NCBI GenBank assembly: GCA_937928045.1
Contig: CALFWO010000005.1
Location: 62,001 to 126,000 of the forward strand
From: an uncultured Saprospiraceae bacterium
Lineage (GTDB): Bacteria > Bacteroidota > Bacteroidia > Chitinophagales > Saprospiraceae
Direction: 5' to 3'
DNA length: 64,000 nt
Shown in pieces: positions 1-64,000 of this stretch. The notes below the pieces were generated by a model. It had not been told where the DNA came from and did no database searches. It saw nothing but the letters and a program-made list of their open reading frames with translations. Made by a program: the position numbers and the translations under genes. Position 1 is the first letter of the stretch, and the number at the start of each line of letters is the position of its first letter.

Positions 1-2390
1 GCATTTTTGCAAGTTGATAAAGCTTCCGATAAAAATATTTTAGCAGTAGCAAATTGATTCTTAGCTAAATATAGAATACCTTTTCCCCCAAGCAAAGGAA
101 TGATCATTCGAGGGTTTTTATCCCCTCCTATTTTTTCCATAGTTAGTGTTGCCAAGTCGTAATGCCGAATAGCCTCATCGTAGTTCTTTTTATTTCGATA
201 GATATGCCCAATGGTACTCATGATAGCCACATGGTAGGGGTGGGGTTCTTTGTAGATTGTTTTTAATATTTCTAATATCTCAACATAATTATTTAAGGCT
301 TTGTCGACGTTACCATTGGCGGAATAAATTCTTGCGAGATTTGAGGCAGAGGCTACAGTTTCTCTATGATTAGTTCCAAAGATTGCTTTACGTTGTTTCA
401 GACTTTCCTTGCCAGTTTCTATTCCTTTTTCATACTCTCCTGTATTGTAGTACAAGCTTGTAAGGTGATTTAAAGTAATTGCTAATTCTGAATGCGGGGC
501 ATCATGCAAAGCTTCTTGCATCGTCAAACATTTCTTGTAAAATATTCTAGCCTCTTCAAATTTCCCCATGTGTCTTTTTACAGAACCACATATCAATAAT
601 GCATCTGCGAATCTCTGGTCATTACCTATGGCATTTTCTTCAATCAAATTTAAATAGGAAGGAATTAAAGAATCGGCTTGAGCGAAATAACCCATTTGAT
701 CAAAGTTGTTTATTTTTAAATGATAAATATTAGCTTGGTGAAAAGGATCATATTGGCTAATGTTTTGCCTTTTTACAATTTGATACAGGCTGTCAGCTTT
801 CTTAATATAAGATGTAGCTAGGTCGAAATTTCCCAAGTCATGATTAGAGTTGGCAGCCTCGTAGTAGCTAAGCGATAAATTTTTAGAAGATATATTCGGT
901 GTATTTAAATTTAGATCAAGTGCAAGTTGTATAAGGCTATCGCCTTTCTCGTAATTGTTGACTCCATTGTATACTTGGCCAAGAATTGTCATCAATGACG
1001 CCTTGATTTCTGGCTCATTATTAAATTTATTTTCAAGATTGGCTGCGCCGTTATCCAAAAGAGATTCTACTGTAATTTGAGCTCCTTGATTTTCGTATGG
1101 ATTGGCAAGCGAAAAAATTTCAGTCAACATTTCTGTCAAGGTTTGACTTTTGGCCGATTCTGCAATAGCAATATTCCGCTCTTTGGTAAGATTAATGGTG
1201 TAATAAATAGTTAGACCAATTATCGTCGCCATTGCGATGGTGCTAAGGGTTGCTATTATCTTGTTTCTTTTAATGAATTTTTTAAAGCGGTAAATACGAT
1301 CTTCTTCTAGAATAGAAATTGGTAATCCGATTTGGAAATTTTCAATATCGCGAATAAATAAATCTACAGATGCATATCTTTCTGTGGGGTCAAGTGATAG
1401 TGCTTTTTTGCAAATAGCATCTAAATCTGTTTTTAGAAGATCTCTGTTTTTAGAAGCTACATGGCTAGGAGGGATGAATTTTCCGCTCATTACATTTTCC
1501 AAATATGCTTCTCGAGTAGTATCGTTTTTACCGAACGGCAGTTGATCTGTAATTAGAAAATAAAGTAAACTCCCGAGGCTATAGATATCACTTTGCGTGC
1601 TTACTGCTGAGTTATTCAGTTGTTCAGGAGAGGCAAAGGCCATTGTGTATCTGTTGTCTGTAGGAATGACATCAGTCTCTATATTTGGCTTTTCTTCCGA
1701 AGAGAGAAATCTTTGAGAAATACCGAAGTCTAAAATCTTTGGATTTCCTTTTTCGCTGACCAGAATGTTTTTTGGTTTGATGTCTAAGTGTAACACCAGT
1801 TGACTATGTGCATGGCCAATTCCATGAGCAATACTTTTGAATAAATTTAAGCGATCAGTGAGACTTGGTTTTTTTTCTTCAATATAAGCCTCTACATCTT
1901 GCCAAGGAAGATACTCCATTGTGAAATACATTCTTCCGTCATCCATGGAACCTCCATCGTAAAGTCTGCCAATATTTGGATGATTCAGTTTGGCTAATAT
2001 TTGTCTTTCTTCTTTGAATCTATTGACTGTCGCTTCAGAGTATTTCCTAGGCCGAACCAATTTGATAGCTACTTCTTGGTCAAATTCTTTGTCTTCTCTT
2101 TCTGCCAAAAAAACAGAGCCCATTCCTCCATAGCCCAACAGCTTTGTTAGACGATAAGGACCAACAATAGAATTGATCAAACCTTCATCTTCAAAAAAGC
2201 TCCAATCTCCAAATGGATTATTACCAAATATAGAATGTAGTTGAAATTCTTGACCAAGTAAGTCTGCGACTTCTTTATAAACTTCGGGGTCATTCGTCCT
2301 AAGTTTTTCTAAAGCACTTTCACGCTGTTTTCCTGAAAGCAATGACAACTCGTCAAATGCTTTTTGAATGGCTGTCCAATTGTTTGTCAT
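1..2390 (-). CDS. Serine/threonine protein kinase with TPR repeats (C-terminus beyond window)
   Basis: The reading frame starts at ATG 2390 and stays open to the window edge, giving about 796 residues without the C-terminus. The N-terminal half is a Hanks-type kinase: glycine loop GYGGMGSV near residue 86, lysine K110 in VAIK, catalytic loop HLDIKPKN at 201-208 (Leu replaces the usual Arg of HRD) and DFG at 221-223. A single membrane segment follows at about 377-398. The rest is a run of TPR-like repeats, presumably on the far side of the membrane. The start codon shares one base with the stop of the upstream sigma factor gene (TGATG), so the two are very likely translated together. The family is known to phosphorylate partner regulators; the sigma factor as substrate is an inference. 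Confidence 0.9.
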   Translation of the reverse strand, partial: MTNNWTAIQKAFDELSLLSGKQRESALEKLRTNDPEVYKEVADLLGQEFQLHSIFGNNPFGDWSFFEDEGLINSIVGPYRLTKLLGYGGMGSVFLAEREDKEFDQEVAIKLVRPRKYSEATVNRFKEERQILAKLNHPNIGRLYDGGSMDDGRMYFTMEYLPWQDVEAYIEEKKPSLTDRLNLFKSIAHGIGHAHSQLVLHLDIKPKNILVSEKGNPKILDFGISQRFLSSEEKPNIETDVIPTDNRYTMAFASPEQLNNSAVSTQSDIYSLGSLLYFLITDQLPFGKNDTTREAYLENVMSGKFIPPSHVASKNRDLLKTDLDAICKKALSLDPTERYASVDLFIRDIENFQIGLPISILEEDRIYRFKKFIKRNKIIATLSTIAMATIIGLTIYYTINLTKERNIAIAESAKSQTLTEMLTEIFSLANPYENQGAQITVESLLDNGAANLENKFNNEPEIKASLMTILGQVYNGVNNYEKGDSLIQLALDLNLNTPNISSKNLSLSYYEAANSNHDLGNFDLATSYIKKADSLYQIVKRQNISQYDPFHQANIYHLKINNFDQMGYFAQADSLIPSYLNLIEENAIGNDQRFADALLICGSVKRHMGKFEEARIFYKKCLTMQEALHDAPHSELAITLNHLTSLYYNTGEYEKGIETGKESLKQRKAIFGTNHRETVASASNLARIYSANGNVDKALNNYVEILEILKTIYKEPHPYHVAIMSTIGHIYRNKKNYDEAIRHYDLATLTMEKIGGDKNPRMIIPLLGGKGILYLAKNQFATAKIFLSEALSTCKN

Positions 2391-2947
2391 CAGGCACTCA
2401 TGTTAAGTCTGGCATGATTCATCTCTCTACTTAGCCAAGCTTTAGCAAGCGTCCATTCTCTTTTCACAGTTGCCACTGAAATATTCATCATTTTTGCGAT
2501 CTCCCCTTGATTAAATCCACTGAAAAACCAGTACTCAATAATTTTAGATCCTCGAGTACTTAGCTTTGCATACTTCTTCATGGCATCATCCAGTTCAATA
2601 ATATCTTCCATAGAACTTTCTGCTACCAACTCATTATTAGACATGGTGATTCTTACATGATCTCCTCCGCGCTTGTCTGTCTTTTTTTGAAGTGCATAGT
2701 TGATCAAAATTCTACGCATTGCAGTAGAGGCCATTGCAAAGAAGTGATCTTTATTAGCAAAATTCTGATTACGTTGAGCGGACATTTTAAGATAGGCTTC
2801 ATGGACGAGGTCGGTCGTATTCAAGGTCAAATCTTTAGACTCAAACTTCAATCTGCCATGCGCGATTCGCTTCATTTCCTCATATATATTTGGAAAATCT
2901 TCGGATTGCCACATGTTCGGTGTGAATTGTGGATTGTTTGGTTTCAT
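2390..2947 (-). CDS. ECF-type sigma factor (TIGR02999 / ECF43-like), partner of the adjacent kinase
   Basis: A 185-residue sigma-70 family protein with region 2 at about 20-95 (DLVHEAYLKM, then FFAMASTAMRRILINYA) and region 4 at about 125-180 with the helix-turn-helix QGEIAKMMNISVATVKREW. The usual acidic DAED in region 2.2 reads N43-T44-T45-D46 here, so threonines stand where acidic residues normally contact core polymerase. In the ECF43 group (EcfP/PknT of Vibrio) a kinase supplies the missing charge by threonine phosphorylation. The gene lies directly upstream of a membrane kinase with a one-base overlap and has no anti-sigma gene next to it. Control by phosphorylation is therefore an attractive inference, not shown by sequence alone. 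Confidence 0.9.
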   Translation of the reverse strand: MKPNNPQFTPNMWQSEDFPNIYEEMKRIAHGRLKFESKDLTLNTTDLVHEAYLKMSAQRNQNFANKDHFFAMASTAMRRILINYALQKKTDKRGGDHVRITMSNNELVAESSMEDIIELDDAMKKYAKLSTRGSKIIEYWFFSGFNQGEIAKMMNISVATVKREWTLAKAWLSREMNHARLNMSA

Positions 2948-3191
2948 CTCGGAGTTATTTGCTTACAAGATACCTCTTTCCGGCCAGAATATCAGGAGTT
3001 TAGGAGCGACAAAAAAGAATAAATTTTGGCACAATAGAAGATTTAAAACTTTATGATTTTGAACTCGTCTGAGGAAATTATTATCCGCCAAGGTGATTAA
3101 TACTTTCTTTTTATATGCAGATGAAGAGGAATAAGCAAATATTCCCTATTTTCATGGAACTTATTTTAAAATTTTGATAAAAAATCCTTTT

Positions 3192-5210
3192 ATGAAAAAA
3201 ATTATACTTTCTTTTTTTACACTGATTCTTTTCAGTTCGCTTTCTTTCGGTCAATCATTTAGTGATGATTTTGAAAGCTATTCTGCAGGAGATTGGTTGG
3301 GGTCTACGGCAGCACAATGGACCACTTGGAGTGGAAATACTGGTGGGGCCGATGATGTTCGTGTCTCAGACGAAGATGCAAGTAGTGGAACAAATTCTAT
3401 CAAACTGGGACCTTCTGCTGCCGGTGGGCCAGAAGATGTTGTACTCTATTTTACTGGCGATAAAATAACTTCAGGTCAATTGAACATGAACATGATGATG
3501 CGCGTAAAGTCGGCAGGATATTTTAATTATCAGGCGGAGACGGCTATTGGCGTAACATGGGCTATGGACTTGTTTTTTGAAGCGAATGGAAAGGGTAGTG
3601 TTACTGCTGGTGGAGTTGCCAATACACTTACTTTTGATTATCCAGCTGACGAATGGTTTAATGTAGCTGTTAATGTAAATTTAGATGCCAACAAATGGCA
3701 AGTGTTTATTGACGGAGGATGTGTAGGATCTTTTGCCAATCCGACAAACACAATTGCTTCCATAGATATTTTTCCAAGAGGAGGTGATGAGTTCTTTGTT
3801 GATGATTTCGCATATACCTATGTTGATGCAGCTCCTCCAATCACAAAAGATGCTAGCGCAACTTTGAATGTTACTGAAGAGCTTGGACTAGTTGGAACTA
3901 AGACTTCGATCATCGGAACATTGGCTAATTTGGGTACCGAGACTATAACATCTTTTGATGTAGAAGCTGTAATAGGAAGTCAAACAATCCCTTTCAGTCA
4001 AACAGGAATCAACTTAGCTGCTGGAGAAAGCATGGACTTTGATATCAATACAAACTTCGCGATGCCAGAGGGAGTTACCACCACTTCAATAAATATTTTA
4101 AGTGTTAACGGAGGAGCATTTGATGATCAAGATCAGTGTAATGATGCTCAGTCTAGAGATATTACTGCAGTTGTTCCTGCACCAAATAAGAAAATTGTCG
4201 TAGAAGAAGCAACTGGAACATGGTGTGGATGGTGCCCAAGAGGTACTGTTGCATTGGAGAAATTAACGTATAAGTATCCAGAAAGATTTATTGGAATTGC
4301 AGTTCATGACAATGATCCTATGGCCGACACTGACTATGATAGCGGACTAGGTGCGACGGCTTTTCCTAATGCAAAAGTGGATCGTGGTGCTTGGATGAAT
4401 CCTGCTAATGTTGAAGGGCCATTTATTGAAAATGTTCAAACTTCAGCAGTGGCTAAATTGGAAAATGGTGCAGAATGGAATGCAGATACCAGAGAATTAA
4501 AATTATCGCTAACGGTTACTGCAACTGAAGATATTTCTACTGGATATAAAGTAAATATGGCAATAACTGAAGATGGTGTAACCGGTACTGGAAATGGTTG
4601 GGCTCAAGCTAATTACTATTCTGGAGGGTCTGATTTATTTTCTTTAGATGGTACCAACTGGGCTGATCTTCCAGATCCAGTTCCTGCAAATCAAAGTGTT
4701 TATGATCACGTAGCTCGTGCAATTCTAGCACCATTTTCTGGGCTGCCAGATAGTTTTACAGAAACTTTAGCAACAGATGGTGAAAAAACTTTCAACTTCA
4801 CTTATACGATTCCTGCGGAATTCGATGAGACTAAAATGCACATTGTTTCTATGATTATTGCTCCAAATGGGACAATAAATAATGGAGAGGCAGTGACCAT
4901 TACTGAGGCAATTGAAAATGGATATACAGTATCTGCTACACATGATATTGCACTTGGGAATTCTACTAGCATATATCCTAATCCATTTTCAAACACTGCT
5001 ACCGTAAGTGTTAATTTGGAAGAAACGGCAGATGTTAATATAAGAGTTGTTGATCTTAATGGAAGAGTTGTAATGATGAAGGACTATGCCAAGCAATCTG
5101 GTTTCTTCAATATTCAATTTGATGGATCAAGTTTAAATGCTGGAGTTTATGTTATGCAAATTACAGCAAATGATAAATTTACTTCAAAGAGAATTTCCAT
5201 TATAAAGTAA
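3192..5210 (+). CDS. Omp28-like secreted protein with thioredoxin-type CxxC and T9SS sorting domain
   Basis: The ATG at 3192 is preferred over an in-frame TTG at 3174 because it places a clean signal peptide (MKKIILSFFTLILFSSLSFG) at the N-terminus; the product is 672 residues. After a concanavalin/LamG-like region (about 20-205) and an Ig-like stretch comes an Omp28-type thioredoxin-fold segment containing GTWCGWCPRG near residue 345. The last 80 residues form a T9SS type A sorting domain (SIYPNPFSN ... LNAGVYVMQI). The protein is predicted to be exported by T9SS and kept at or released from the cell surface. The WCxWC motif could be redox active, but its substrate is unknown. A strong terminator follows. 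Confidence 0.85.
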   Translation: MKKIILSFFTLILFSSLSFGQSFSDDFESYSAGDWLGSTAAQWTTWSGNTGGADDVRVSDEDASSGTNSIKLGPSAAGGPEDVVLYFTGDKITSGQLNMNMMMRVKSAGYFNYQAETAIGVTWAMDLFFEANGKGSVTAGGVANTLTFDYPADEWFNVAVNVNLDANKWQVFIDGGCVGSFANPTNTIASIDIFPRGGDEFFVDDFAYTYVDAAPPITKDASATLNVTEELGLVGTKTSIIGTLANLGTETITSFDVEAVIGSQTIPFSQTGINLAAGESMDFDINTNFAMPEGVTTTSINILSVNGGAFDDQDQCNDAQSRDITAVVPAPNKKIVVEEATGTWCGWCPRGTVALEKLTYKYPERFIGIAVHDNDPMADTDYDSGLGATAFPNAKVDRGAWMNPANVEGPFIENVQTSAVAKLENGAEWNADTRELKLSLTVTATEDISTGYKVNMAITEDGVTGTGNGWAQANYYSGGSDLFSLDGTNWADLPDPVPANQSVYDHVARAILAPFSGLPDSFTETLATDGEKTFNFTYTIPAEFDETKMHIVSMIIAPNGTINNGEAVTITEAIENGYTVSATHDIALGNSTSIYPNPFSNTATVSVNLEETADVNIRVVDLNGRVVMMKDYAKQSGFFNIQFDGSSLNAGVYVMQITANDKFTSKRISIIK

Positions 5211-53605: not shown

Positions 53606-55036
53606 TTATTCCTCTGGTTTTCTCATTAAGGTATCCAAGTATCCTTTTATTAGCGCCTCTAAATCTCCAGTTCCTTTTAAGTCGCCAATCATGCCGTAAA
53701 GTGCGGCTGACCTTTTCCCTTCCACTCCTCCTTTTTTTAGGGCTAAATTCTGCACCTTTTGATAGGTTTGCGATGGTAAAATTTTGCGAAGAATTTTACT
53801 TGCACCGATTTGAATATTCTTATTAAGGGTGGCCAATGAAACGCGCTTTACCTTGGCAATACATTCCAATAGATCTTTTTTGAATTCTTCAATATAGTTT
53901 TCATGATTAGGACTCACAGAAATATGCAGACAAGCTGGATCTTGCTGGCGATCCATTAACCATCCTTTTAGATACATCTCATCGCCTAATTCATAAATAT
54001 CAAAACTGGTGGATCGGAAAGAGAAAATACAAATATCTGGAGATCCTACTACTTCAAGATCTGGAATTGCAGTGATAATATCCTGCAACTGTTTTGCCAC
54101 GCGCATAGAAATGGAAACTTCATTGTCATATCCTTTTCTACCCAATAGTTTCAAGGTCGTCCAAGCTACTGCGATTGCACCAGCCGGCCGAGTACCTGCG
54201 ATCGTAGGAGAACCATACATACCTCCAGGCCAGCCAGTATAAACATAAAATTGCGCCTTACGCAATTCTGGATCATTGTATAGTACAACAGAAGAACCTT
54301 TCGAAGCAAAACCATATTTGTGAATGTCTGCAGAAATAGATGTTACGCCAGGAACACTAAGATTGAACTTTGGAGCCTGCTCTAAAAAAGGCAATACAAA
54401 ACCTCCGACACAAGCATCGACATGCAAAAGTATATTTCGTTTTTTTGCTAACTGACCCAATGCCTCAATTGGATCAACAACACCTTGCGGATAAGATGGG
54501 GCAGATCCTACGATTAATATGGTATTTTCGTTCATCGCTGATTCCACTAATTTAGGATCAGCACGAAAGTCCTTTCCACATGGAACGATTACCGGTTTTA
54601 AAGAAAAATAATCACAAGCCTTATTGAAGGCAGGATGCGCGGAATTTGAAAATAATACCTCCGGCTGTTTGATTGTTGGTTTATGAATTTTACTCCATTC
54701 CTTTGCCGATTTCAAGGCCATCATAATACTTTCAGTGCCTCCAGAAGTCATAGATCCAACAGCGGAAGCTCCGCCACCTAATAAAGAAATACACATATCG
54801 ACGACTTCTCCTTCCAATTTTCTTAAGCTGGGAAAAGCTGCCGGATTCAATGCGTTTTCCGCAAAGTAAATCCGTTGTGCTTCTTGTAAACATTCGTAAA
54901 TGGCCGCAGATGGTTTATAGATATAGCTAAATGATCGACCATGTTCCCAGTCGAGGTCATTGCTCTTGTTATCTTTAAGCTGTTGGATTAAATCTTCAGC
55001 AACAGTTCCATTTTGTGGAAATTCATGTCTCGCCAT
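53606..55036 (-). CDS. PLP-dependent sphingosine-1-phosphate-lyase-like enzyme
   Basis: 476 residues of the group II decarboxylase/S1P lyase superfamily. S1P lyases cleave long-chain base phosphates into an aldehyde and phosphoethanolamine. Marks: NALNPAAFPSLRKLEGEVVDM near 80, GSMTSGGTESIMMALKSAKEW near 118 (cofactor phosphate), HVDACVGGFVLPF near 205, and the Schiff-base lysine in SISADIHKYGFASKGSS near 240; GWPGGMYGSPTIAGTRPAG near 270 is typical of the lyase rather than glutamate decarboxylase. Some Bacteroidota make sphingolipids, so a breakdown enzyme is plausible, but substrate assignment is inferred from family resemblance. Confidence 0.85.
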   Translation of the reverse strand: MARHEFPQNGTVAEDLIQQLKDNKSNDLDWEHGRSFSYIYKPSAAIYECLQEAQRIYFAENALNPAAFPSLRKLEGEVVDMCISLLGGGASAVGSMTSGGTESIMMALKSAKEWSKIHKPTIKQPEVLFSNSAHPAFNKACDYFSLKPVIVPCGKDFRADPKLVESAMNENTILIVGSAPSYPQGVVDPIEALGQLAKKRNILLHVDACVGGFVLPFLEQAPKFNLSVPGVTSISADIHKYGFASKGSSVVLYNDPELRKAQFYVYTGWPGGMYGSPTIAGTRPAGAIAVAWTTLKLLGRKGYDNEVSISMRVAKQLQDIITAIPDLEVVGSPDICIFSFRSTSFDIYELGDEMYLKGWLMDRQQDPACLHISVSPNHENYIEEFKKDLLECIAKVKRVSLATLNKNIQIGASKILRKILPSQTYQKVQNLALKKGGVEGKRSAALYGMIGDLKGTGDLEALIKGYLDTLMRKPEE

Positions 55037-55143: not shown

Positions 55144-55899
55144 ATGGAAAATATTCTCACATTACTTTTATTAGTGCTACTTCAATGTGTACTTGGATTT
55201 GATAATCTTTTATACATCTCATTGGAGTCCAAACGAGCACCTGCTGACAAACAAGCTTATGTTCGAAAAGTGGGAATCTTTATTGCCATCGCCTTAAGAA
55301 TCGTTTTGCTATTCCTGTTGGTCAACCTAATAGAATATACACAGTCTGAACTTTTTGGATTTAATCAAGATGGTGTGCTGGAAGGTCATTTTAATGGCCA
55401 CAGTTTAATCGTATTGGCCGGTGGAATATTCATCATCTATACTTCGATAAAAGAAATTTGGCACATGATGAGGATGGAAGAGCATGAAGATGCTGCAAAT
55501 AAAAAGACTTCAACAGTTGCCAAGGTGATCATGTGGATTGTGATTATGAACCTTGTTTTTTCTTTTGATTCTATTCTTTCTGCAATAGCCTTGACAGATG
55601 TTTTCTGGGTAATGGCTGCAGCGATAGTTATCAGTGGATTTCTAATGGTTTACCTAGCGGATACCGTATCAAATTTTTTGGAAAAAAATAAAATGTATGA
55701 GGTTCTAGGGCTATTTGTCTTGTTCTTAGTGGGAATTATGCTTGTTACCGAAGGTGGACACCTTGCCCACCTAAAGATTTTAGGCAATGAAATCACGCCA
55801 ATGAATAAGACCACTTTTTACTTCATCCTCTTTATACTTGTAGTTGTGGATGTTGTTCAAGGAAGGTATCAGAAAAAATTAAGCGCAAGAAAACCTTAA
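55144..55899 (+). CDS. TerC-family integral membrane protein
   Basis: 251 residues with seven or so hydrophobic helices. The family marks are the intramembrane acidic motifs LLQCVLGFDNLLYISLES near 13-30 and MNLVFSFDSILSAIALTD near 133-150, where Asp residues probably coordinate a divalent metal. TerC/Alx-type proteins are linked to manganese export and to metal loading of exported proteins; the tellurite label is historical. There is no ter cluster here. The 3' end overlaps the convergent RidA gene by four bases. Confidence 0.88.
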   Translation: MENILTLLLLVLLQCVLGFDNLLYISLESKRAPADKQAYVRKVGIFIAIALRIVLLFLLVNLIEYTQSELFGFNQDGVLEGHFNGHSLIVLAGGIFIIYTSIKEIWHMMRMEEHEDAANKKTSTVAKVIMWIVIMNLVFSFDSILSAIALTDVFWVMAAAIVISGFLMVYLADTVSNFLEKNKMYEVLGLFVLFLVGIMLVTEGGHLAHLKILGNEITPMNKTTFYFILFILVVVDVVQGRYQKKLSARKP

Positions 55900-58888: not shown

Positions 58889-59239
58889 ATGTCTTCTTCC
58901 AAATTTGACGAACATCTGGACAAATGCATGGCCCAAGCCGATAAATTAGGGCTAAATGTAGAGCGCAAACTTATGCATCGCGTTTTACTCAGCTTAGGAC
59001 CAACGATATACAATCGTGATAGTTCGACTGTTGCTGCTAGTGATCCTGAGGAGATGGCTTATGTAAAAAATAATTTTTTGAAAAAGAAATTAGGGATGAC
59101 GGATGATGATGAAATGGATGGGGTGTTGTTGAAGGTGAAGGAGGAGATGAAGGAAAGAGGAACCCCTCAAAAATTTAGAGCAGTATTTTATGTATCTATT
59201 GTTTTAAAGCTGAAATTAGACTTGGAATCAATTTTTTAA
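58889..59239 (+). CDS. DUF2853 family protein
   Basis: 116 residues matching the small DUF2853 family throughout: FDEHLDKCMAQADKLGLNVERKLMHRVLLSLGPTIYNRDSSTVAASDPEE, then VKNNFLKKKLGM and RAVFYVSIVLKLKL. The family is cytoplasmic, helical and of unknown role. The last 12 bases overlap the 3' end of the convergent CHAT gene. The preceding 217 bases (58672-58888) contain no other visible gene. Confidence 0.85.
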   Translation: MSSSKFDEHLDKCMAQADKLGLNVERKLMHRVLLSLGPTIYNRDSSTVAASDPEEMAYVKNNFLKKKLGMTDDDEMDGVLLKVKEEMKERGTPQKFRAVFYVSIVLKLKLDLESIF

Positions 59240-62011
59240 TTTGTATAGTAGTCCTAAAGCTCCTAAGATTAAAAATAGAATTAGTAGCACTAAAGTGTTG
59301 GAATTTCTTTTTTTAAATATGATATCCGAATTACCAGTCGCTGTAAGACCCGCCCAATAAAATGGATGTTTTAATTCGTTTGGCATTGTGTTTAGGAAAT
59401 TAATTTGGGCAACTCTTAAAGAATTTGAAATGGATTTTCCTTCGTCTAACTTTTGATAAAATGAATCAAAAATTTCTTTCATGGAGTAATCACTTGCATC
59501 CCATAAGTTTGAAATAACTACAGATGCTCCATTTCTGAAAAAATTATTCGCTAAGGTCATTTTCCCTTCTCCCTGAATAGTTTTTCCTCTTCCGGAGTTA
59601 CAGGCACTTAGAACTACCAAATTGGTTGAGTTGTTTTTAGGGAATATTTCATTAACTTCCACAAGTTCAAATGAATCTTTTATTCCGGTTGATAAAACGA
59701 GGTTAGTTGTTTTGTCTGAATTTTGTCCAGTGATAGTGTGAGTAGCAAAATGAATGATGTTGGATTCCTTAAAGTATTTTATTATATTTTCTTCAGTAGA
59801 TCTCTCTTCTAGCAAAACCGTAGTTTTTATATTTTGTTCAATGGACTTTACTTCCTCAATATTGTAAATTAATTTAGACAAATCATTTCTGATCAGCGAT
59901 CCACTTTTTGAAGAATTGAATTTTGGTGCAACAGCTAATACGTTAGGATTGCTTGTTTTATCCGATTTTTTACGGTTCAAAATATAGGAGCCTATAGATG
60001 GAGAGTAGGAGAAATTGTATTTGTGAATTAACCATTCATAGCTACTAAAATTTGTTATATCTTTTGGAGTATTTGAAATAAGTGCACCGAAAGGAATATC
60101 AAAAAGACTTGCATGCGGAATGATAACAACATTTTGAGTTATTCGACTTTCTAAAGGTTCGATTAGTAATTTATAGAGATTATGATTGACGGAGACATAA
60201 TTTTTGTAGTTTTTAGCTTCCGGCGAAATATGAAAATCATCTAATTTTGATATAGCATGTTTTAAATAGTTAGTAGAGTCAATGGCGACACGATTAAAAT
60301 AATTTCCATTTGCACTAATTACCATTGAGTACAAAAAATTTCTATACACTATGTAGCTTATGAAAGTTTCATCTTTCGCATGAGCAATCTTTTGAATTTC
60401 TTTGAATGATACTGAATTAAGCGATTTGATCTCATCAAAAAAGTGACTGAAATTATTTTGAATAGAATCGATTAATATTTTGTAATCAACTCTTTTCTTT
60501 AAAATCTGTAAAGTAGCATTGTAGCAAATTGATTCATTTTTTTTTCGAATCAGTAGTTTAGCTTTGAGATTGAGGATTTCATTTCTTAATGTATTTTCTT
60601 TCTTAAGAATAGGGATGTCATTTGAGTTATCAAAAAAAATATTGTCACGACTTGTGTAATGGTTGAATATAAATGACTTGTAATTTTCGAAAAAGTCGAA
60701 AATTATTTCGAAAGGAATGATTTGGTTCTTGCCTTGATAGTAGTCCCAAAGGAATAGAATTTTTTCTCCAAAAGCTATTAGGTCTTCTTCGGAAAATTTC
60801 AAGTCTGAAAGGTTTTCGTTCCCAAAGTAAATTTTCGTTTTTAAATTGTCAATAGAGGATTTACTGTACGACCAAAGCTTATTTGTCAAATCAAGTGTTG
60901 AATCTCTAACTTGTTGGTTAAATAATTGGATTAAAAGAAATTCTATCATATTTCTTTTCAACTCCATAAAGCTATATGGCTCAAATAATTCAGCATTTAA
61001 ATGCTTTATTCCTTCCTCTCCGTTTTTCGCGGCAAGTTTTAGTTCATTACTGTCCATGTAGTTCATTCCCTGAAACAACAAAACCTTAGCCCGCAAAACT
61101 GGTACCCCTTTAAACCTCTCGCTCAGCGCCAAAGCCTCATCACTTACTTTTTGCTCTTCCTCAACTTCCCCGGCAAATAAATGATAATAGGATTTGTTCA
61201 ACAAAAATGAAATATATGTCGCAGTATCGATCGGAGATTGCTGATTTAATAATTGTTGCGCCTTGCTCACATGATAATCAAGCCTAGATTGATTTCCTAA
61301 AAATAGATGTAGCCTTATACTCAAAGTGTGAGCTCGAGCCAAGGTCTTGCCATCTGTCAATGGATTTTCCCGATACCAATTTTGGATTGAATCCATCAAA
61401 CCTAAGGCGGCATCATTTTCATATTGCATTGTTTTTACCACACCTTTTACATACAACATCTCAGCGAACAATTGGGAATCTTGCATGCCTGCTTGCAGCA
61501 AGTGATAGCCAATCAAATCTACCCATTCTAATGCCAAGTCATATTGCAGTTTGTCAATATAACTCATAGCTACTATTTCTAAAATTCTTGATAGTGCTTT
61601 AGGGTTCTCTGAAATCCTTCGATCTAATGCAAATAATAATTTTTTCCCATATACCAATACAGAGTCTGGCAATCCCATCTCATGATAGGCGTTACAAAGA
61701 AGTTCCCAATTCTTTAATATTAAATTTGAATCTATAGAAGGGTCGTTGCCATAATTTTTCTCCAACGCTTGACCATATAGAATGGCCCGCTTATATTCAA
61801 ATTGAGAAAAATAATTGGAAGATATATTTTGTAATTGGCAGCGAATGTTATCCGTCTCGGAAGTGGAAAGTAAATCTTTGAGAAAAATAGCATCTCCATG
61901 TTCGCTGATCTTAGAGTAATCTATAGTAACTAGGCCGCAATCCTGACCAAGTAGGTTTACAGAAAGAAAAGTAAAAATGAAAATCAAATGGAGACCATAA
62001 GTCTTTCTCAT
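59228..62011 (-). CDS. Exported TPR-CHAT protease-like protein with C-terminal membrane anchor
   Basis: 927 residues from ATG 62011, which supplies the signal peptide MRKTYGLHLIFIFTFLSVNLLG. Residues 60-420 are TPR-like helices. The CHAT domain (caspase-like protease) occupies about 600-895 with the catalytic His in IIHFATHTITG (H758) and Cys in VVLSACNSGRG (C804), followed by GEGKMTLANNFFRNGASVVISNLW. A single span, TLVLLILFLILGALGLLY, ends the chain. Signal peptide plus C-terminal anchor place the protease domain outside the cytoplasm. Substrate unknown; TPR-CHAT proteins in other systems (for example Craspase) are activated by partner proteins. Confidence 0.9.
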   Translation of the reverse strand: MRKTYGLHLIFIFTFLSVNLLGQDCGLVTIDYSKISEHGDAIFLKDLLSTSETDNIRCQLQNISSNYFSQFEYKRAILYGQALEKNYGNDPSIDSNLILKNWELLCNAYHEMGLPDSVLVYGKKLLFALDRRISENPKALSRILEIVAMSYIDKLQYDLALEWVDLIGYHLLQAGMQDSQLFAEMLYVKGVVKTMQYENDAALGLMDSIQNWYRENPLTDGKTLARAHTLSIRLHLFLGNQSRLDYHVSKAQQLLNQQSPIDTATYISFLLNKSYYHLFAGEVEEEQKVSDEALALSERFKGVPVLRAKVLLFQGMNYMDSNELKLAAKNGEEGIKHLNAELFEPYSFMELKRNMIEFLLIQLFNQQVRDSTLDLTNKLWSYSKSSIDNLKTKIYFGNENLSDLKFSEEDLIAFGEKILFLWDYYQGKNQIIPFEIIFDFFENYKSFIFNHYTSRDNIFFDNSNDIPILKKENTLRNEILNLKAKLLIRKKNESICYNATLQILKKRVDYKILIDSIQNNFSHFFDEIKSLNSVSFKEIQKIAHAKDETFISYIVYRNFLYSMVISANGNYFNRVAIDSTNYLKHAISKLDDFHISPEAKNYKNYVSVNHNLYKLLIEPLESRITQNVVIIPHASLFDIPFGALISNTPKDITNFSSYEWLIHKYNFSYSPSIGSYILNRKKSDKTSNPNVLAVAPKFNSSKSGSLIRNDLSKLIYNIEEVKSIEQNIKTTVLLEERSTEENIIKYFKESNIIHFATHTITGQNSDKTTNLVLSTGIKDSFELVEVNEIFPKNNSTNLVVLSACNSGRGKTIQGEGKMTLANNFFRNGASVVISNLWDASDYSMKEIFDSFYQKLDEGKSISNSLRVAQINFLNTMPNELKHPFYWAGLTATGNSDIIFKKRNSNTLVLLILFLILGALGLLYKLKN

Positions 62012-62121
62012 TTCAGGAAGTTTATAAAACAATATACCAACTGAATGCAAGAAAAACGAATGGGTACAATCCCATTTAAAATCAAAAAAGCAAAAACATT
62101 GTTATGGGAGGGTAAAAAAAA

Positions 62122-62277
62122 AGCGAGCATGGATCAATTTTACCCCCCAATAAAAAGATCCTACTCGCTAGTTTAAGGTCACTTCTGACCTCAAGATTTT
62201 TGCATTATATCCCTACTGATTACTGTTCGAAATATTGTTAACCAGGGGAGGGCAACATTCCTTACAGAGGGGGGAAT
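62122..62277 (+). ncRNA. Candidate structured RNA element, copy 1 of 2
   Basis: Three hairpins. A: AGCGAG (62122-62127) with CTCGCT (62164-62169), and GGATC (62131-62135) with GATCC (62157-62161), closing a loop that contains AATTTTACCCCCCAATA (62136-62152). B: AGGTCA/TGACCT with a CTTC tetraloop (62176-62191), followed by T5. C: ATTCC (62257-62261) with GGAAT (62273-62277), loop containing CAGAGGGG. The same three-part layout recurs at 62322-62449. The strand is uncertain: on the minus strand hairpin A is followed by nine T, as in a terminator. Confidence 0.55.
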
Positions 62278-62290
62278 CACAAAAACCAGT

Positions 62291-62322
62291 TTTGTACGGT
62301 TAATACTAATATTTTCAATTTG
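62291..62322 (+). promoter_or_regulatory. Promoter-like sequence before RNA element copy 2
   Basis: TTTG at 62291-62294 and TCAATTTG at 62315-62322 are 20 bases apart; the second matches TAnnTTTG at all fixed positions but one. Transcription would begin near 62324-62328, just where hairpin A of copy 2 begins. Confidence 0.45.
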
Positions 62323-62449
62323 TAGTGAGCAAGGAGGCCAATTTTACCCCCCAATATAACTGGCCTCACTCACTACGTATAAGACCGCATTTGGCCTTAG
62401 TTTCTAAGTGTCGTTTTGCTCAAATGATTCCTTTTGCAGAGGGCGGAAT
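62322..62449 (+). ncRNA. Candidate structured RNA element, copy 2 of 2
   Basis: Hairpin A: GTAGTGAG (62322-62329) with CTCACTAC (62369-62376) and GAGGCCA (62334-62340) with TGGCCTC (62361-62367), loop containing AATTTTACCCCCCAATA (62340-62356), identical to copy 1 although the stems differ. Hairpin B: AAG-CC/GG-CTT at 62381-62398. Hairpin C: ATTCC (62427-62431) with GGAAT (62445-62449), loop with CAGAGGGC. Paired stems of unrelated sequence around an invariant loop argue for conserved RNA structure. A promoter-like sequence ends where the element begins. Confidence 0.6.
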
Positions 62450-62547
62450 TGGTCAAGACGTCAGTAAATTTTTTTCCGATTATATCCCGGATAACTTTCA
62501 AACATCTCCCATTTGAGGACATCTACTATTAGGCAAAGACTATGCCA

Positions 62548-62799
62548 CTAGAGTGCCGCCGTAGAACTCTTTTTTATACTTTTTACCTGAACCTCTATCG
62601 CTGCATTGGCGTTTTTTTGATCTAACAGTTTGTTATAGACTTGCTTATACAAGCTGTAATCTGAAAATTCTTGATACGGAATTGTTTGATCTAATCCTAA
62701 ATGCAATAAAATTTGAAAACAAAGCTTCTGTTCACGATAGTAGAATTTCGTGATTAAGTTTTGAACGGAAGAGCCTTGGATTATCCTTATATCTTTCAT
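62548..62799 (-). CDS. Possible small protein of unknown function
   Basis: 83 residues from ATG 62799 (MKDIRIIQGSSVQNLITKFYYREQ at the start, then QKLCFQILLHLGLDQTI and YKQVYNKLLDQ). Mixed helix composition, no signal or membrane span, no family recognised. It is divergent from htpG, with 220 bases between starts. On the minus strand the next recognisable signal downstream is the hairpin-plus-T9 at 62114-62169, which may end its transcript. Coding is plausible but not certain. Confidence 0.4.
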   Translation of the reverse strand: MKDIRIIQGSSVQNLITKFYYREQKLCFQILLHLGLDQTIPYQEFSDYSLYKQVYNKLLDQKNANAAIEVQVKSIKKSSTAAL

Positions 62800-63019
62800 A
62801 TCTATTTAGTTGGATTACCAATTTTATTGCAAATTTGAAACCAAGCTCTTGTGAATGAGGCCAACTAGATGTTTCTTTTGTGACAGTCTTCTCTGCCAAA
62901 TTCAATAGCCCAGCCATATGTTTCTTTCCTTTTTCGGTCAATATGACAGACAAATTCCAATGGCATGCGCTTTGAACCCTTATAAAACATAAGGATTTAA
63001 CCATAAAAACGAGATAACT

Positions 63020-64000
63020 ATGCAAAAAGGGCAGATATCGGTAGAAGCTGATAATATATTTCCCATAATCAAGCAGTTCCTTTACTCTGATCAAGAGATA
63101 TTTCTAAGAGAACTGGTATCCAATGCAATTGACGCAACTAGTAAATTGAGTACCCTAAGCTCCAGAGGCGATTTCAAAGGAGAATTGGGTGACCTGACTT
63201 TGCAAATCAAATTGGACAAAGAAGCTGGAACTTTAACCATCTCCGATCGCGGTATTGGAATGACAGAGAAAGAAGTAGGCAAATACTTGAATCAAGTGGC
63301 CTTTTCTTCAGCAGAAGACTTTTTGAAAAAATACAAGGACGAAGCAAGCATCATTGGACACTTTGGACTAGGATTTTATTCCGCATTCATGGTGGCCGAT
63401 AGAGTAGAGGTGATTACCAAATCATACAAACGTGGACAAAAAGCAACACGTTGGATGTGTGAAGGAAATCCAGAATACTTCATCGAAGCGCACGATAAGA
63501 AAGAAAGAGGAACAGATATCATCTTGCACATCTCTGATGACGCAAAGGAATATTTAGAGGAGCCAAGAATTCAAACCCTGTTGAGCAAGTATTGTAAGTT
63601 CTTGCCATTCCCAATTCAGTTTGGAGAAAAAACTGAGACCGAATATGAAGGCGAAGGAGAAGATCGAACTTCAAAGGAAGTTACCTCACCTAATATTGTC
63701 AACAACCCTAAACCAGCTTGGAAGAAATCCCCAAGAAGTTTAAAGGAGCAGGAATACAAAGATTTTTACAACGAGCTCTATCCATATAGTACACCACCAT
63801 TATTTTGGATTCACCTCAATATTGATTTTCCATTTAACCTAACGGGAATTTTATATTTCCCGAAGCTTGGGAACTCAATGGAAGTGCAAAAGAATAAAAT
63901 TCAGTTGTACAGTAATCAAGTATACGTCACCGATGACGTGAAAGAGATTGTACCTGAATTTTTAACCTTATTGCATGGTGTCATCGATTCTCCGGACATT
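63020..64000 (+). CDS. htpG: Molecular chaperone HtpG (Hsp90), N-terminal part
   Basis: 327 codons from ATG 63020 run off the window; HtpG is normally about 600 residues. The ATP-binding GHKL domain is complete: FLRELVSNAIDATSKL near 28, LTISDRGIGMTEKEV near 73, IIGHFGLGFYSAFMVAD near 110 and GTDIILHI near 165. The middle domain begins with KPAWKKSPRSLKEQEYKDFY, LFWIHLNIDFPFNLTGILYFP and LYSNQVYVTDDVKEIVPEFL, where the conserved Arg/Lys positions contact ATP. It folds and remodels client proteins in the cytoplasm. No clear -33/-7 promoter could be picked in front of it. Confidence 0.97.
   Translation, partial: MQKGQISVEADNIFPIIKQFLYSDQEIFLRELVSNAIDATSKLSTLSSRGDFKGELGDLTLQIKLDKEAGTLTISDRGIGMTEKEVGKYLNQVAFSSAEDFLKKYKDEASIIGHFGLGFYSAFMVADRVEVITKSYKRGQKATRWMCEGNPEYFIEAHDKKERGTDIILHISDDAKEYLEEPRIQTLLSKYCKFLPFPIQFGEKTETEYEGEGEDRTSKEVTSPNIVNNPKPAWKKSPRSLKEQEYKDFYNELYPYSTPPLFWIHLNIDFPFNLTGILYFPKLGNSMEVQKNKIQLYSNQVYVTDDVKEIVPEFLTLLHGVIDSPDI

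Follow-up and report, generated by a model that had tools for sequence, protein, structure and literature searches.

A family-wide structured RNA with six-G loops, linked to htpG and sigma-54-like promoters in Saprospiraceae

The 64-kb stretch of Saprospiraceae DNA considered here (the window) ends inside htpG, the gene for HSP90, which runs off the window on the plus strand (63020–64000). On the minus strand, divergent from htpG, lie a small open reading frame for a conserved protein of 83 residues (62548–62799), a tandem element with the features of a structured RNA and, directly downstream of the latter, a gene for a large protein with a C-terminal CHAT domain (59228–62050). The tandem element is marked by an 18-mer, CAATTTTACCCCCCAATA, found at 62135–62152 and 62339–62356, which bears out the spacing of 204 nucleotides reported in a first-pass annotation of this DNA; the window holds no third site with up to three mismatches, and none of 100 shuffles contained two sites by chance. 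Read on the plus strand, each copy has a long paired stem (P1), then a short hairpin (HP2) and, last, a G-run-bearing segment of the form ATTCC..GGAAT. The two P1 stems had been described as completely different in sequence yet paired; long paired stems are indeed present, but the sequences are partly alike, with GAG..CTC common to both.

On the minus strand, the predicted primary transcript extends from 62521 to 62114 and would carry two modules with a loop of six guanines (G6), its start being set 19 nt from the centre of a sigma-54-like motif, after PMC4591121, and its end in a T-run. Sequence and covariation place the hairpins within these modules. The 5′ copy, module B (62318–62403), comprises an HP2 and a P1 hairpin (62322–62376) with its G6 loop at 62347–62352, without a T-run. 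The 3′-most copy, module A (62116–62197), comprises an HP2 hairpin (62175–62192) and a terminator-like P1 hairpin (62122–62169) with its G6 loop at 62143–62148, followed by a U-run at 62121–62114. Modules A and B score 91.4 and 84 bits with our covariance model R1, of which both are seed members, so that these matches arise by construction. The linker between them (62245–62274, minus strand) holds two C-rich blocks complementary to the G6 loops, CCCCCC at 62269–62274 and CCCTCCCC at 62245–62252. The minus-strand transcript (410 nt, 62113–62522) folds at −125.9 kcal/mol (z = −5.1; none of 100 shuffles equally stable); plus-strand folds around the single copies (181 and 151 nt) gave z = −0.3 and −3.3, at lengths that differ from that of the 410-nt fold and preclude a direct comparison. 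A U-run after the hairpin, a feature of Rho-independent terminators, is present for module A and lacking for module B.

For comparison across relatives we assembled 62 loci from 62 genomes, 22 high-scoring and 40 mostly lower-scoring, hand-picked from more than 100 positive genomes (L049, the second contig of genome G018, is excluded from the 62-locus counts and included in the linker count below). Already in a structure-free alignment with three initial relatives (G001, a congener with two copies, G018 and G033), several stem mismatches appeared as A-C on the plus strand and hence as G-U on the minus strand. Across 65 distinct copies, the non-Watson-Crick stem cells of the minus strand comprise 305 G-U and 19 A-C; 121 of the former belong to two near-constant U-G pairs closing the loop, and 184 G-U against 19 A-C remain when these are removed. 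Because G-U cells far outnumber A-C cells on the minus strand, we read the RNA on that strand, where a structured RNA is almost certainly encoded. The loop, annotated as C6 in the first pass on what proved to be the wrong strand, is most likely G6, and the module order becomes HP2, then the long P1 hairpin with its UUGGGGGGUA-type loop, often followed by a U-run.

The same annotation had proposed a selected RNA structure with compensatory changes around a fixed loop, and the relatives agree. In an alignment of 69 copies (65 distinct), double changes occur at 24 of 28 pairs and 96.4% of cells are paired, against 88.7% after shuffling, values that none of 500 shuffles reached. A second set of 49 copies (48 distinct) from 40 other genomes showed double changes at 27/28 pairs, with 90.6% of cells paired against 70.5%. 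Both alignments were fitted to the model, which flatters these figures; shifting the paired columns against each other by one to three positions lowers pairing to 37–50% in the first set and 39–49% in the second. The models cover P1 and HP2 only, leaving the putative third hairpin outside them, and one copy (G018b), whose 3′ arm was misaligned, was omitted from seed A6. Sequence comparison thus strongly supports P1 and HP2 in the relatives.

The longest G-run is exactly six in 97 of 98 copies from the 62 loci and seven in the other, with UA next in 89, a constancy to be read knowing that G6 loops were used to seed the models; G5 loops occur in two relatives that the models miss (L279, L281). 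Two to four modelled copies are present in 24 of the loci and one in the other 38. By eye, more G6-loop hairpins lie upstream of the modelled copy in L165, L177, L179, L195, L196 and L198, mostly outside the model matches, and the copy numbers may therefore be underestimates. The contigs L049 and L102, which come from one genome, each break off within the tandem array, and short-read assemblies may therefore miscount copies. P1 appears terminator-like in many last copies. A T-run of at least five follows only 40/62 last copies, versus 18/36 inner copies, which counts against a general role of the last hairpin as terminator.

Model R1 matches 103 of 298 Saprospiraceae genomes at E ≤ 0.1 and 90 at E ≤ 0.001; the 13 with a best E between these values may include chance matches. 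At the looser threshold, positives comprise 73/217 nearly complete genomes and 50/112 genera. Further copies with compensatory changes do occur in relatives, an outcome that favours the first-pass annotation, which had named their absence as a refutation. Model R2 matches 47 of 348 genomes in a sample of the order and 3 of 295 in a sample of the class, all of them Saprospiraceae. A loose DNA pattern run over genome contigs gave 51 loci, 26 of which have model matches at E ≤ 1e-7, again all in Saprospiraceae, while the remaining 25 have none at E ≤ 0.01; four viral contigs also fit the pattern, without any model match up to E 1.

Among 30 family genomes negative in the genome-wide model searches, chosen for completeness, seven have, in the 1 kb ahead of htpG, a hairpin on the RNA strand with a loop of G5 or longer, against one on the opposite strand. 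Six of the seven are plausible, five of these with a T-run, and one is doubtful (L275); outside the family, no such hairpin was found upstream of htpG at 28 loci (at most 27 genomes, a few counted twice). When R2 was given nine such loci alone, seven matched, five at E < 0.01, and three of the seven (L259, L260, L262) are absent from the hairpin calls. Judging from these sequences, the RNA family is wider than the covariance model.

At gathering score, Rfam 15 has nothing on the element, its single hit in the window being a tRNA elsewhere, and nothing in 20 homologous loci. A search of 61900–62700 at E ≤ 5 returned two sub-gathering plus-strand matches only, rli31 and RsaOG, and six more loci at E ≤ 1 gave one sub-gathering match away from the RNA. 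Since no gathering-score match falls on the element, we rejected a known RNA family, in keeping with the first-pass view that the element is unnamed. The closest idea offered there, the actinobacterial 6C RNA with its six-C loop, finds no support: the loops are alike only if the other strand is read, the supported strand having G6, and no 6C match on the element was found at gathering score or up to E 5. A mobile repeat was rejected as well, since most listed genomes with matches have them at one place and 50/62 loci lie beside htpG; the exceptions with matches on two contigs include G018, G142, G209 and G308. By eye, hairpins bearing this very G6 loop sequence also stand alone elsewhere in two genomes of one genus (L235, L236).

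Several features of the locus go beyond the first-pass annotation, namely the frequent neighbour htpG, the sigma-54-like promoters, the intervening small ORF and the terminator-like last P1. The RNA lies divergently upstream of htpG in 50 of the 62 loci, with a median distance of 486 nt between the start of htpG and the first HP2; the 12 loci with no htpG beside the RNA all belong to the 40 mostly lower-scoring ones, and none to the 22 high-scoring. In 17/62 loci (htpG itself is missing in two, L193 and L200), the stretch separating htpG from the RNA encodes, in the RNA's direction, a conserved protein of about 83 residues; the protein was undetected in the 45 others, which keep the RNA. Its predicted structure has a confident β4-α-β core (mean pLDDT 84). 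Searches with this protein gave marginal scattered matches only in Pfam, NCBIfam and PHROGs and no match among PDB sequences, and the Foldseek candidates, at best E 0.068 with low TM, were not accepted. Downstream of the RNA the gene varies among the 22 loci compared, a peptidase-like gene (named by eye) being frequent, and we therefore rejected a role as leader or attenuator for the CHAT gene found there in the window. In L183, a 1403-residue protein (63–4274, minus strand), which may be Cas9-like by its N-terminus, adjoins a weakly scoring RNA copy without htpG.

Sites resembling sigma-54 −24/−12 promoters were scored with a matrix built from 19 E. coli ChIP-seq sites printed in PMC4591121. 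The putative promoter of the RNA, GTGGCATAGTCTTTGCC (62532–62548, minus strand, 11.1 bits), overlaps the stop codon of the small ORF by one base; that of htpG, ATGGCATGCGCTTTGAA (62960–62976, plus strand), scores 13.8 bits, and a weak site lies upstream of the small ORF (62828–62844, minus strand, 8.2 bits). The window contains 12 sites of at least 11 bits on both strands, and 37 of at least 8 bits. Because the score of GTGGCATAGTCTTTGCC is by itself modest, the claim of a promoter for the RNA rests on its conserved position. The strongest sigma-54-like sites of the window, of 15.5 and 15.1 bits, are at 54084–54100 and 55581–55597, both on the minus strand.

Upstream of the RNA, the matrix finds a site of at least 8 bits in 41/62 loci, compared with 8 on the opposite strand and 3 downstream. 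A weighted sigma-54 consensus, with a scoring zone within 260 nt upstream of the first copy, reaches at least 12.5 of 16.5 in 47/62 loci (15 on the opposite strand and 6 downstream; shuffles average 5.9 and peak at 12) and at least 14 in 26/62 (opposite strand 3, downstream 0, shuffle mean 0.52); the downstream control was scored only in loci that were long enough (over 200 nt for the matrix), so its denominator can be below 62. Shuffles for the consensus keep dinucleotides, and those for the linkers and htpG sites keep base composition only. A textbook −24/−12 motif ahead of the RNA is seen in lower-scoring loci too. In 15 of the 17 loci with the small ORF, the top-scoring upstream site starts no more than 10 nt from the stop codon of that ORF, at the same offset in ten, although four of the 15 score below 8 bits (L089, L092, L098, L193). 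No site of at least 8 bits lies upstream in 21/62 loci, and some lineages may use another promoter for the RNA. In loci without a good sigma-54 site (L096, L168, L171, L177, L192, L194) we noticed by eye a CATACCAA-like or GTACCAA-like motif upstream, perhaps another promoter or a regulator site. Taken together, these patterns suggest that the RNA is very probably sigma-54-dependent.

Ahead of htpG itself, a site of at least 8 bits is found at 32 of 49 loci with the RNA (9 on the opposite strand, shuffle mean 1.45; one of the 50 loci was dropped because the htpG start was not aligned), in 16 of 30 model-negative family genomes (opposite strand 4, shuffle mean 0.95) and, outside the family, in 19 of 30 loci from 27 genomes (opposite strand 1, shuffle mean 0.75), where two genomes, both below threshold, are counted twice. 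RpoN is encoded in 278/298 family genomes, that of the window included, and is so widespread that its presence does not tell RNA carriers from the rest. One report on Flavobacterium psychrophilum places htpG, dnaK, grpE-dnaJ, groES-groEL (GroESL) and lon under sigma-54-motif promoters (PMC9723704), and a comparative study of predicted sigma-54 targets in Bacteroidota reports enrichment for chaperone genes (PMC12316311). Because the RNA and htpG both have sigma-54-like sites and predicted sigma-54 targets in Bacteroidota include chaperone genes, the RNA appears to belong to the same sigma-54 chaperone regulon as its neighbour.

These observations can be joined in a model that we consider somewhat favoured overall (probability roughly 0.55): a sigma-54-dependent RNA of the chaperone regulon whose G6 loops most likely act by titration or as decoys. 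Activator-dependent sigma-54 RNA polymerase would start a noncoding RNA at about 62521 on the minus strand, heading away from htpG, and the transcript would end in the U-run of the last hairpin, at about 62114. Together, the RNA and the divergently transcribed htpG would form part of a sigma-54 chaperone (protein-quality) regulon of these Bacteroidota. Each module would present a short HP2 and then a long hairpin with a GGGGGG(UA) loop, the last often doubling as terminator, and we infer that the loops dock a common partner, which could be an RNA-binding protein or a set of C-rich RNAs, and take it out of circulation when folding stress sets in. The C-rich blocks in the linkers of tandem copies could pair with the loops and may gate them. 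We favour docking of a common partner because the loop is near-constant in length and sequence and several loops share a transcript in 24/62 loci; caution is due because the 38 single-copy loci would make a weak sponge, and neither CsrA nor Hfq turned up as a candidate partner in the 37 genomes searched. That the docked partner is a new RNA-binding protein, perhaps the 83-residue β-rich protein itself, which would make a two-part regulator in the sigma-54/HSP90 response, is a rather improbable extension.

The main rival of titration or a decoy is a trans-acting base-pairing small RNA under sigma-54 control, in which the G6(UA) loop would seed pairing with UACCCCCC-type sites in mRNAs and repress or stabilise them. 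A conserved loop held in covarying stems does look like a seed, and two perfect loop complements lie upstream of genes: a 13-nt one in the genome of the window, 77 nt ahead of a predicted gene with a signal-peptide-like start (L221), which is an isolated lead, and one in a relative, 51 nt ahead of a deformylase-like gene named by eye (L237). However, TACCCCCC is not enriched in the window's own genome, with 18 occurrences, two of them the element itself, against 24 for the reversed control, and loop complements are not clearly enriched in 36 RNA-positive genomes, with eight non-element sites against four in controls, at least two of the eight (L235, L236) being themselves hairpins by eye. mRNA targets recognised through loop complementarity were rejected on this lack of enrichment. 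Hfq, moreover, was found in none of 37 genomes (that of the window, 23 further ones of the family and 13 from other families of the order), where a control search was positive in 5 of 14 named genomes. We regard this base-pairing mechanism as tentative, and give titration or a decoy about an even chance over classical pairing with mRNAs.

A scaffold, in which G6 loops and linker C-blocks pair mainly with each other, within or between RNAs, and build a compact or multimeric particle, seems less probable again. In its favour, C-rich blocks able to pair with G6 occur in 24 of 27 linkers from 23 high-scoring loci (shuffle mean 0.63) and in only one of 23 downstream control segments; in tandem loci, such blocks are the recurring feature at the position of the third hairpin. 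The first-pass proposal that the loop pairs with a nearby run of the complementary base survives in this complementarity, with C and G exchanged. Against the scaffold, a C-block is found in only 12 of 23 first segments, G6 persists in several single-copy loci of lower score whose transcript shows no obvious C-block by eye, and the G6 side hardly varies, so that covariation is uninformative on this pairing.

It is very unlikely that the element is a mere cluster of terminators or a transcribed spacer of the small ORF, with no function in trans. The terminator-like P1 of many last copies and the small ORF just upstream in 17/62 loci would fit, but the conserved G6 loop, HP2 and a separate promoter are all more than a terminator requires, most loci keep the RNA with the ORF undetected, and a sigma-54-like site separates the two in 15 of the 17. 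A plus-strand C6-loop leader of htpG, acting as thermometer or riboswitch, is suggested by copies that lie upstream of htpG on its own strand and is hardly credible, since stem mismatches would be A-C on that strand and an mRNA from the htpG site at 62960 would not contain the copies, the site lying between them and htpG; we rejected the plus-strand reading on both counts.

Known RNAs offer comparisons for the favoured titration or decoy model. The sponge RNAs RsmY/Z carry several hairpins, each showing a G-containing loop motif, GGA. So do CsrB and CsrC (PMC5027483). The window RNA, with two modules, resembles them in this, though only 24 of the 62 loci have more than one modelled copy and 38 have one, and its motif is GGGGGGUA. 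Repeated GGA loop motifs are thus not what these copies show, and CsrA was found in none of the same 37 genomes, with a control search positive in 3 of the 14 named genomes. GlmY of E. coli combines a sigma-54 promoter with a small structured RNA and shows that sigma-54-driven decoy RNAs exist (PMC7073468); it is by analogy with GlmY that we propose a decoy. The likeness is functional only: GlmY comes from another phylum, no relation to it was found through Rfam, and the RNA described here is htpG-linked, often tandem and equipped with G6 loops. The F. psychrophilum regulon resembles our locus in having HtpG and other chaperones under sigma-54-motif promoters; in the available text of that report no RNA figures among those promoters, whereas the Saprospiraceae RNA gene shares the htpG locus (PMC9723704).

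The structured RNA described here is new, occurs across the family and is linked to htpG and sigma-54-like promoters; its strand and structure are well supported, and its regulation is strongly suggested by sequence. Among the best literature matches on small RNAs of Saprospiraceae or Bacteroidetes with sigma-54, and on htpG-linked noncoding RNA, this RNA is undescribed, and the same matches describe no regulatory RNA of Saprospiraceae. Little is understood of how bacteria that lack Hfq and CsrA regulate their genes after transcription. The RNA offers a concrete handle on this, with a defined predicted transcript, a nearly constant six-G loop and protein-folding stress as the predicted inducer, and could serve as bait for finding a new RNA-binding protein. 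A two-part RNA-protein regulator, if true, would be a proteostasis counterpart of the Csr/RapZ circuits in genomes where neither CsrA nor Hfq was found. More generally, the sigma-54 chaperone regulon would gain an RNA arm.
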